NCBI RefSeq assembly: GCF_024746835.1
Contig: NZ_CP080531.1
Coordinates: forward strand, 4,174,001-4,238,000
Source: Mesorhizobium sp. AR02
Lineage (GTDB): Bacteria > Pseudomonadota > Alphaproteobacteria > Rhizobiales > Rhizobiaceae
Length of the DNA: 64,000 nt
Direction: 5' to 3'
The notes under the pieces are model-generated. The model searched no databases, had not been told where the DNA came from, and was given only the letters and a program-made list of their open reading frames with translations. The position numbers and the translations under genes were made by a program. Positions 11,660 through 29,405 of this stretch are shown here, piece by piece (position 1 is the first letter of the stretch; each line of letters begins with the position of its first letter).

Positions 11660-11684
11660 AATAGCCGGCCCGAGGTGCAAGGCG

Positions 11685-11770
11685 TAAAAAAAGACCGCAT
11701 CGTTTGCACGATACGGTCGAAGTCTAGGGAGGAAACGCCCAAGGAGGGCATGGACAGGAAAACCTGTCCG
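11685..11770 (-). ncRNA. mmgR: Small RNA of the MmgR / suhB (alpha-r8) type
   Basis: The minus strand carries a compact RNA of about 85 nt. In order it has a perfect hairpin GGACAGG-TTTT-CCTGTCC, a second hairpin GCCC-TCCTT-GGGC with a CUCC loop, the single-stranded motif GUUUCCUCCCUAG, and an intrinsic terminator stem GACCGTATCGT / ACGATGCGGTC followed by seven T. The pyrimidine motif UUUCCUCCCU is complementary to Shine-Dalgarno sequences. Its place between an N-formylglutamate amidohydrolase gene and an inositol-monophosphatase-family gene agrees with the suhB/MmgR family of rhizobia, in which MmgR limits polyhydroxybutyrate storage. The family name is from memory of these features; the RNA gene itself is well supported by promoter and terminator. 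Confidence 0.85.
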
Positions 11771-28040: not shown

Positions 28041-28230
28041 TCGTCATCCACGGGCGGAGCAGGAGCGAAGCTCCGTCGCGGAGACCCGAGGATCCATTCT
28101 GTTACATGAGACCCAGAGTGTTAGCGGTCCGGAACGATGTCTCCAGGCCCACCACCGCAGAGGCGCTCATAAGTCGCGGCATGGATCCTGGGGTCTGCGC
28201 CGCGTCGCTTCGCTCCTTGCTTCGCCCCAG
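28041..28230. repeat. Large extragenic palindrome interrupted by the IS
   Basis: The left arm (28041-28100) has TCGTCATCCACGGGCGGAGC, then CGGAGACCCGAGGATCCATT. The right arm (28179-28230) reads back as its reverse complement: CATGGATCCTGGGGTCTGCG, then CGCTTCGCTCCTTGCTTCGC. The right arm lacks its last bases here. GATGACGA, which mirrors the TCGTCATC of the left arm, is found 1.15 kb further on at 29385, just past the IS. The middle (28101-28178) has no arm. Confidence 0.8.
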
Positions 28231-28261
28231 GATTGTTTGAGCAGGATTGGGTAGTGTGGCG

Positions 28262-28435
28262 GCCGGGACTGCGGCCCATCACAACCGGCAGTCCCGGCGG
28301 CAGGCGACCGTCCCTGGGATCGGGCAACACCCGACGTCATCATGGTCCCTGCCGTCTTTGTCCGCCATCGCTTGGAGAGTTGATTGGCCGCTGGCTTGCG
28401 CCACGCCCGCAAACAATCCGAAGCCTTAGAAGGAT
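28262..28435 (+). ncRNA. Bridge RNA of the IS110 element (about 174 nt)
   Basis: 5' stem-loop: GCCGGGACTG (28262-28271) with CAGTCCCGGC (28289-28298). Target-binding loop: basal stems GGCAG/CTGCC (28299-28303/28349-28353) and ACC/GGT (28307-28309/28344-28346); left target guide CCCTGGGAT (28312-28320); apical hairpin CGGG-CAACA-CCCG (28321-28333); right target guide CGTCATC (28335-28341). Donor-binding loop: basal stem GCTT-GG / CC-g-AAGC (28370-28375/28418-28424); left donor guide AGAGTTGAT (28376-28384); apical stem TGGC/GCCA; right donor guide CAAACAAT (28410-28417). The order, size and guide placement are those of the IS621 bridge RNA. Ends are estimates. Confidence 0.92.
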
Positions 28436-28444
28436 ACCACCAGC

Positions 28445-29386
28445 ATGGCCTTCTTGCATCAACAACCGAGCCTGTGCCTCGGCCTCGATATCGCCAAGGA
28501 CACCATCACCGCCGCCGACGGCACCACCACCCAAGTCATCGACAACCAGCGACGCACGATCCGCGCCTTCCTCAAGAGCCACAAACAGGCCGATCTCGTG
28601 GTCTGCGAACCGACCGGTGGCCATGAGAGCCTGCTGCTCGAAGAGTGCCTGCGCGCCGGCATCGCCTGCCATCGCGCCGACACGCTCAAGGTCAAGAGCT
28701 TCATCCGCTCCTACGGCACGCACGGTAAGAGCGATGCCATCGATGCCGCCATGTTGAGAGCCTACGGTCGCGAACGCTGGGAAAAGCTGACCCTTTGGCA
28801 AGCCCCGGACCCCGACGAGACCCGCTTGCGCGCCCTGGTGCGCCGCCGCCAGGAACTCATCGCCATCAAGATCGCAGAGAAGAACCGCGCCAAGGCACCT
28901 GGTGGCCGCGAGCTCGCTGCCTCCTTCGAGGCCGTGATCAAAGTCGTCGAGCGTCAGATCCAAGCCATCGATGCAGCCATGCGCGAGCTGATCGCCGGTA
29001 GCAGCGCCCTCAAGCATCGAGCCGCCATCTGCACGGCCATGGACAGTCTCGGCCCGATCGTGACCGCCAAGCTGCTGGCCATCTTGCCCGAGCTCGGCAC
29101 CATGACACGCCGAAAGGCTGCAGCCCTTGCAGGGCTCGCGCCTCATCCAAACGACAGCGGACAAAAGCAAGGCTACCGCAAAATCCGCGGCGGACGACCG
29201 GAAATCAGGAGCATCCTCTACATGCCCGCATTGCACGCCGCTGCCGGAAGGGGCGAGTTCGCCACCTTCTACAAACGCCTCATCACCAACGGCAAAAAGC
29301 CAATGGTGGCCATCGCTGCCGTCATGCGAAAAATCGTCGTCACCCTAAACGCCAGGCTCAGAGACGCCACCATTCCTCAGAGTTGA
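28445..29386 (+). CDS. IS110-family recombinase (transposase)
   Basis: This 313-residue DEDD/Ser recombinase appears intact. The RuvC-like DEDD residues are D15 (LGLDIAKD), E55 (VVCEPTGGHE), D97 and D100 (GKSDAIDAAML). The C-terminal Tnp domain has SLGPIVTAKLLAILPELG and the catalytic Ser238 in APHPNDSGQKQGYRKI. With its bridge RNA it should join the circular element to a target by strand exchange at the core dinucleotide. ATG at 28445 follows AGAAGGATACCACCAGC, with AAGGA about 9 bases away. The stop codon TGA (29384-29386) takes its last A from the core AT. Confidence 0.95.
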   Translation: MAFLHQQPSLCLGLDIAKDTITAADGTTTQVIDNQRRTIRAFLKSHKQADLVVCEPTGGHESLLLEECLRAGIACHRADTLKVKSFIRSYGTHGKSDAIDAAMLRAYGRERWEKLTLWQAPDPDETRLRALVRRRQELIAIKIAEKNRAKAPGGRELAASFEAVIKVVERQIQAIDAAMRELIAGSSALKHRAAICTAMDSLGPIVTAKLLAILPELGTMTRRKAAALAGLAPHPNDSGQKQGYRKIRGGRPEIRSILYMPALHAAAGRGEFATFYKRLITNGKKPMVAIAAVMRKIVVTLNARLRDATIPQS

Positions 29387-29405
29387 TGACGAAGCTCGGA
29401 CGTTC

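Follow-up and report, generated by a model that had tools for sequence, protein, structure and literature searches.

An IS110-family element in a rhizobial host palindromic repeat carries a predicted bridge RNA whose guides match its insertion sites

Results

The element and its insertion site

The window analysed here, a 64-kb stretch of an 8.9-Mb, four-contig genome, contains an IS110-family element of 1,154 bp at 28234..29387 (equally 28232-29385, the AT core being shared) on the plus strand, as are all element and target-site features below. The host probably belongs to Mesorhizobium, since insertions found in same-genus genomes recur in named Mesorhizobium contigs (L036 and L017). It consists of a 211-nt non-coding left end (28234-28444) followed by the reading frame of a 313-aa recombinase (28445..29386), whose stop codon is separated from the element end by 1 nt. 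The protein matches the DEDD_Tnp_IS110 (PF01548, RuvC-like, E 4.2e-13) and Transposase_20 (PF02371, E 2.7e-13) domains and, among solved transposases, IS621 (E 1.4e-27) and ISCro4 (E 4.2e-26). Its residues D15, E55, D97, D100 and S238 align with D11, E60, D102, D105 and S241 of IS621, and mutation of these IS621 residues abolishes activity (PMC11208158).

The element interrupts a host palindromic repeat. The left part of this repeat (ATCCTGGGG ... CCCCAGGAT) occupies 28185..28233 and closes with the left target CCCCAGG (28225..28231) and the left copy of the core AT (28232..28233). Element sequence then begins with the right donor TGTTTG (28234..28239), which together with the core reads ATTGTTTG, and finishes with the left donor AGAGTTGAT (29379..29387), which includes the right core AT; the repeat resumes with the right target GACG (29388..29391), seen in 5/5 copies and in empty sites. 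The final serine codon and the TGA stop of the recombinase fall within the left donor, so that the donor sequence and the end of the protein place constraints on one another.

When 146 same-genus genomes were searched with the joined flanks, 113 gave matches at E 1e-60; many of these matches cover just the right-hand gene. The element's left-end letters were absent from all nine same-locus relatives inspected. Four of these loci (L108, L109, L111 and L113, in genomes G029, G036, G104 and G094, respectively) carry the unbroken site CCCCAGGATGACG, base for base, with the bases of the left target and a single AT. The other five have variant repeats free of the element: CCCCAGGATGATG in L115 and L117, CTCCCAGGATAACG in L110, CCCGTGGATGACG in L114 and CCCGAGGATGACG in L116. 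The intact empty sites thus give exact boundaries with one shared AT, and the insertion is precise, with a short AT core and no target duplication.

A predicted bridge RNA in the left end

A reading made from the sequence alone had proposed that the left end is a bridge RNA with four guides, and all eight sequence segments on which it was built lie where it placed them and pair as it described. The predicted RNA, about 163 nt long, begins with a 5' stem-loop (28262..28298) whose arms, 28262-28272 and 28288-28298, pair at 11/11 positions (2/300 shuffles as good). A predicted target-binding loop follows (28299..28353), with a basal stem GGCAGG/CCTGCC that is invariant across 15 aligned sequences, an inner hairpin (28321-28333), the left target guide (LTG) CCCTGGGAT at 28312..28320 and the right target guide (RTG) CGTCATC at 28335..28341. 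The predicted donor-binding loop (28370..28424) has the basal stem GCTTGG/CCGAAGC and contains the left donor guide (LDG) AGAGTTGAT at 28376..28384 and the right donor guide (RDG) CAAACAAT at 28410..28417.

The LDG equals the right end at 29379-29387 (9/9), and the RDG complements ATTGTTTG, the left end at 28232-28239 (8/8). The RTG is complementary to the right-junction sequence GATGACG at 29385-29391 (7/7), and the LTG pairs with the left flank CCCCAGGAT (28225-28233) through seven Watson-Crick and two wobble pairs.

The minimum-free-energy fold of 28240-28440 has -89.8 kcal/mol (2/200 shuffles as good). The donor loop is absent from the centroid structure and is seen through its conserved stems, and the left end had no family match in Rfam at gathering thresholds. 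Elsewhere in the window, at 11679-11756 on the minus strand, Rfam gave a match to the suhB / mmgR small RNA (65.5 bits). For the 5' stem we compared 13 distinct arm pairs. A direct comparison of these arms (99% paired as found, 45% when swapped) was rejected, because arms picked for complementarity and differing in register inflate the contrast; the fair control passes shuffled sequences through the same arm choice. Twelve pairs match at 11/11 positions, with 0-4/300 shuffles as good, and the remaining one (L105) at 10/11, with 18/300. Relative to the window, three base pairs in L030 and one in L035 carry compensatory changes in which both sides changed and pairing was kept. RNAalifold on a MAFFT alignment gave a weak signal (covariation term -1.15), owing to wrong placement of the 5' stem and the variable guide in that alignment, and there is little donor-loop covariation because the basal stem is nearly invariant. 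We conclude that the left end has all three predicted parts of a bridge RNA: the 5' stem-loop, and a target and a donor loop that are recognized by conserved stems with little covariation.

Joining of the element ends is predicted to form a promoter-like pattern, in which the predicted -10 box TAGTGT (28252..28257) would stand 17 nt from TTGATT in the joined-end circle. Modelled end junctions, many from close relatives, fit TTGATT-N17-19-TANNNT in 22/22 sequences, with a spacing of 17 nt in 17, 18 nt in 4 and 19 nt in 1. For 18 of them the right end was in the sequence read; for the other 4 (L033, L035, L085 and L086) its TTGA was assumed, and the guide of L085 suggests a different end. The integrated copy reads AGGATT where the joined ends give TTGATT, so that the circle, once excised, would be the main expected source of the RNA, as has been described for IS621 (PMC11208160).

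Host copies and the repeat variants they occupy

The host genome has five near-identical copies of the element (99-100% protein identity). All five start after ...AGG-AT and stop before GACG, and thus share one position, ...AGG/AT/GACG, in the 3' arm of the palindromic repeat (ATCCTGGGG ... CCCCAGGAT-GACG). The sequence-only reading had taken target, donor and core as known from one copy; they are readable there, and with five copies the rule rests on more. What it had called the left flank does pair with the LTG and can now be described more closely as the 3' arm of a host palindromic repeat, which it had not mentioned. Uninterrupted 3' arms matching CGCCNNNGGATGACG number 62 in the genome, compared with 0 for the reversed control pattern; the occupied arm of L002 deviates from the CGCC start of this census pattern. 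A second copy of the repeat lies just upstream in the opposite orientation (28042-28097 and 28181-28233), and many repeat arms occur in minus/plus pairs with a spacing of ~166-240 bp, an arrangement that resembles paired REP units of the BIME type.

The rare CCA variant of the arm, which pairs with the host guide through two wobbles and zero mismatches, holds 3/5 host copies compared with 4/62 empty arms (p 0.007), and the commonest variant, CGT (29/62 empty arms), holds none of the five (p 0.05). This CCA enrichment and CGT avoidance are suggestive. Against random repeat arms, the host's own copies pair better with their own guide (p 0.044, with a wobble cost of 0.4 that was the analyst's choice); a swapped guide from the relative G047 does no worse (p 0.016), and for that reason this own-genome test, which does not discriminate, was rejected as guide evidence.

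It is conceivable that the RNA system is real and that the host copies are by now inactive relics, as the one copy with a recombinase split over two frames might indicate. We consider this unlikely: the other four frames are intact at 99-100% protein identity and the 215-nt left ends are identical in all five copies, which points to recent movement, and all five catalytic residues are present.

Guides and flanks in related insertions

For a comparison across relatives we assembled 50 non-duplicate insertions from 19 lineages (distinct guide sets), with 18 distinct left target guides including that of the window. They come from named genomes (19 loci) and from three overlapping genome sets, each including G000, with matches at E 1e-60 in 9/146, 9/297 and 8/397 genomes. 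At most 7 and 5 candidates per genome were scored in the sets of 297 and 397 genomes, respectively, and copy numbers in relatives are therefore lower bounds. Repeat sightings of one insertion under another locus id (L006, L036, L037, L039, L041, L043, L045-L048, L084, L094, L095 and L099), loci with cut or rearranged left ends (L020/L079 and L031), members of another IS110 subfamily (L007/L008) and loci found later (L129-L133) were left out. Pairing was scored over the seven non-core left-target positions, with 1 for a Watson-Crick pair and 0.5 for a wobble.

On this scale the LTG scored a mean of 6.17/7 against its own left flank and 4.28 when flanks were shuffled among lineages, and 0/20,000 shuffles reached the own value. 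True mismatches were absent from 28 of the 50 insertions, single in 17 and double in 5. The two core-adjacent positions, which hardly vary, pair in 48/50 insertions, and the mismatches lie elsewhere. Individual lineages illustrate the fit: the guide GCGTAGGAT of L026 has the flank GCGTAGGAT, that of L085 (TACAGGAAT) the flank CACAGGAAT, that of G320 (at least 5 copies) reads TTCCGGGAT in the flank TTCCGGGAT, and that of G393 (at least 4 copies) reads TCCCGGAAT in CCCCGGAAT or ACCCGGAAT. Among the loci found later, L129 (CCCTGGGAT in CCCTGGGAT) and L131 (CCCTTAGGAC in CCCTAGGAT) fit by eye; for L132 (TCCTAAGGTT in CCCAAGGAT) the fit, again by eye, includes one wobble and a departure in the core, and the sequence of L133 breaks off ahead of its guide.

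The RTG was compared with the right flank in the 16 lineages for which that flank is known, and 16/20,000 shuffles reached the own score. L030 shows a matched change, with the RTG CCTCATC and the flank GATGAGG. The RTG TGTCATC occurs in four Pleomorphomonas-type lineages with known right flank, and their flanks read GATGACA in 7/8 cases and GATGACG in 1/8 (L096). Mismatches at the seventh base were found in lineages St, St2 and G208 as well as in L080 and L096: the RTGs of St and St2 call for GATGACG and face GATGACC or GATGACA, and that of G208 calls for GATGACA and faces GATGACG. Judged by these pairings, the target guides co-vary with their flanks. Flanks that ignore the loop sequences had been named at the outset as the observation that would count against a bridge RNA; the left flank follows the guide in the 19 lineages.

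Could chance, or the alignment of GC-rich palindromic sequence, produce such agreement? Stems rich in G and C are common, and the fold of this one sequence beats its shuffles only moderately (z -2.65). Nonetheless, not one of the 20,000 shuffles over 19 lineages matched the observed score, in all 13 sequences the 5' stem does better than most shuffles, with compensatory changes among them, and four guides are right at once with the element ends exact, so that we regard an artefact as extremely improbable. The earlier judgement that the agreement goes beyond chance is borne out, as it recurs in independent insertions and relatives and is gone on shuffling.

Within narrower groups the LTG signal was smaller. 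For the six Mesorhizobium lineages alone, co-variation was not significant (2,360/20,000 shuffles reached the own score), and for the five Pleomorphomonas-group lineages alone 872/20,000 shuffles did so. The Mesorhizobium result would also be expected if the recombinase itself read the repeat DNA (the palindrome plus GGATGACG), the left end being only regulatory and the guide matches reflecting shared ancestry. The tabulated Mesorhizobium insertions with known right flank do share GG-AT-GACG, except L030, and small RNAs that regulate the transposase have been reported for the IS110 member ISPpu9 (PMC8450116). Three observations speak against a DNA-reading recombinase and make it, in our view, very unlikely. 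First, among recombinases that are 63-64% identical, the guides TTCCGGGAT and TCCCGGAAT sit in the flanks TTCCGGGAT and (C/A)CCCGGAAT, respectively. Second, the site of L018 lies outside the usual palindrome, with no left arm visible by eye, and fits its own guide at 7/7 left-target positions and beyond, the guide reading AC over the AT core. Third, the repeat variants occupied in G047 follow the G047 guide: of the five copies belonging to one lineage, three occupy the CAA variant, the best pairing of that guide, which accounts for 3 of the 100 empty arms listed of 129 (occupancy p 0.001). With the same 100 of 129 arms listed, the repeat-variant test in G047 gave p 0.0001 for the own guide and 0.23 for a swapped one.

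The donor guides were compared with the element ends in the same lineages. The RDG is complementary to the left end at 8/8 positions in 12/19 lineages and at 7/8 in the other 7, and it changes with the left end in three matched types (ATTGTTTG, ATTGTTCG and ATTGTCTG); in L085, for example, the RDG CAGACAAT accompanies the left end ATTGTCTG. The left end of G774 differs from its own RDG at one base. The LDG is invariant except in L085, the right end of which was unseen, so that it carries no covariation signal; in G579 the right end begins TGAG and the guide AGAG. Overall, the bridge RNA interpretation is supported by the LTG test and by an RTG and RDG that co-vary with exceptions.

Two further features of these loci are recorded here. 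L082 and L105 have the core GT at the left junction and AT at the right junction, as if target and donor cores had differed at insertion. In G047 (C1:1065724-1069035), L044 and L045 are two copies of the G047 element in inverted orientation, their reading frames about 1.4 kb apart.

Discussion

From these comparisons, we consider it highly probable that the locus is an IS110-family element with a predicted bridge RNA, and that it inserts by RNA-guided recombination. Its landing sites are likely chosen by RNA base pairing, as in IS621. In the mechanism we propose, the excised circle would join the right and left ends and thereby create a promoter across the AT core, from which the RNA would be transcribed with a start at about 28262. 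Base pairing would engage the 3' arm of the host repeat with one loop of the RNA and the joined ends of the element with the other; strand exchange at AT by the DEDD and serine recombinase would follow, leaving the target unduplicated.

Much of this, as predicted from sequence for the present element, is shared with IS621 of E. coli (PMC11208160, PMC11208158): the domain order, the D/E/D/D and S residue set, an RNA in the non-coding left end that runs from the 5' stem-loop through the target loop to the donor loop, the strand rules that the four guides obey, a core of two bases at which recombination would take place, and insertion into REP sequences. Where IS621 forms a promoter across its joined ends, the present element has a promoter-like pattern. 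There is one position at which the guide of IS621 and its natural REP target disagree, a G facing A that is read as rG:dT (PMC11208160); likewise, a guide G faces a target A here, at target position 5 in the five own-genome copies. Unlike IS621, the element has a recombinase of 31% protein identity to it, the core AT and not CT, another repeat family as target, different guides and a left donor that overlaps the recombinase stop codon. The mechanism, the anatomy, REP targeting and the G:T wobble at a REP position have already been published for IS621, and the known mechanism is unchanged by our results.

ISRm19 of Sinorhizobium meliloti is likewise a rhizobial IS110 element with Transposase_20, the likeness being drawn from its description; 4/4 copies lie in REP sequences (Table 2 of PMC1525189), a report from 2006 that predates bridge RNAs. 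The seekRNAs of IS1111/IS110 elements (ISEc11, ISXne4 and ISEc21; PMC11187229) share a non-coding RNA with two target-matching stretches, and a changed target-matching region has naturally re-directed ISEc11/ISXne4. ISEc11 and ISXne4 are of the IS1111 type, which has subterminal inverted repeats and carries its long non-coding region downstream, whereas the long region is upstream here. Membership of the IS1111 subgroup was considered and rejected: the non-coding region is upstream and the right end lies almost wholly inside the reading frame. The literature searches that we made returned no paper that we recognized as describing this element.

The analysis extends bridge recombinases to a rhizobial clade and adds natural guide-target pairs from 19 lineages, in which the guides follow the host repeat family across genera. 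Genomes with several copies, where one guide meets many repeat variants, provide a natural data set on mismatch tolerance, and the compact orthologues (313 aa, AT core) are candidates to test as recombination tools. More speculatively, the lineage may be a repeat-tracking parasite whose target guide is re-tuned to the palindromic repeat family of each new host, perhaps because sequence is copied from a repeat that it occupies, and not through gradual point mutation. We hold this to be rather unlikely; if true, one RNA would read dozens of interchangeable landing sites outside genes.

Left-end remnants and a second IS110-type element

Relatives were absent from a plasmid search (tblastn, E 1e-60) and from a viral-contig search. 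No RNA-only, non-autonomous copies were found in the host genome, where all 5 left-end matches (30/30 candidates scored) belong to recombinase copies. A left-end search of the same genus, with at most 5 candidates scored per genome, gave at least 40 matches, 11 loci of which were read. In two of these a full-length left end adjoins an incomplete recombinase gene: in L129, which lies at a contig end, and in L130, whose left end and flank are the same as those of L035. L131-L133 are cut by contig ends, and L134-L139 are six short remnants; in L134 and L136, from two other genomes, the match ends inside the loop of the 5' stem-loop. The host genome also carries a different IS110-type element (L007 and L008, at C2:1171678-1172574 and 4509450-4510346) with 34% protein identity, the two copies of which are 98.9% alike over about 1.3 kb.
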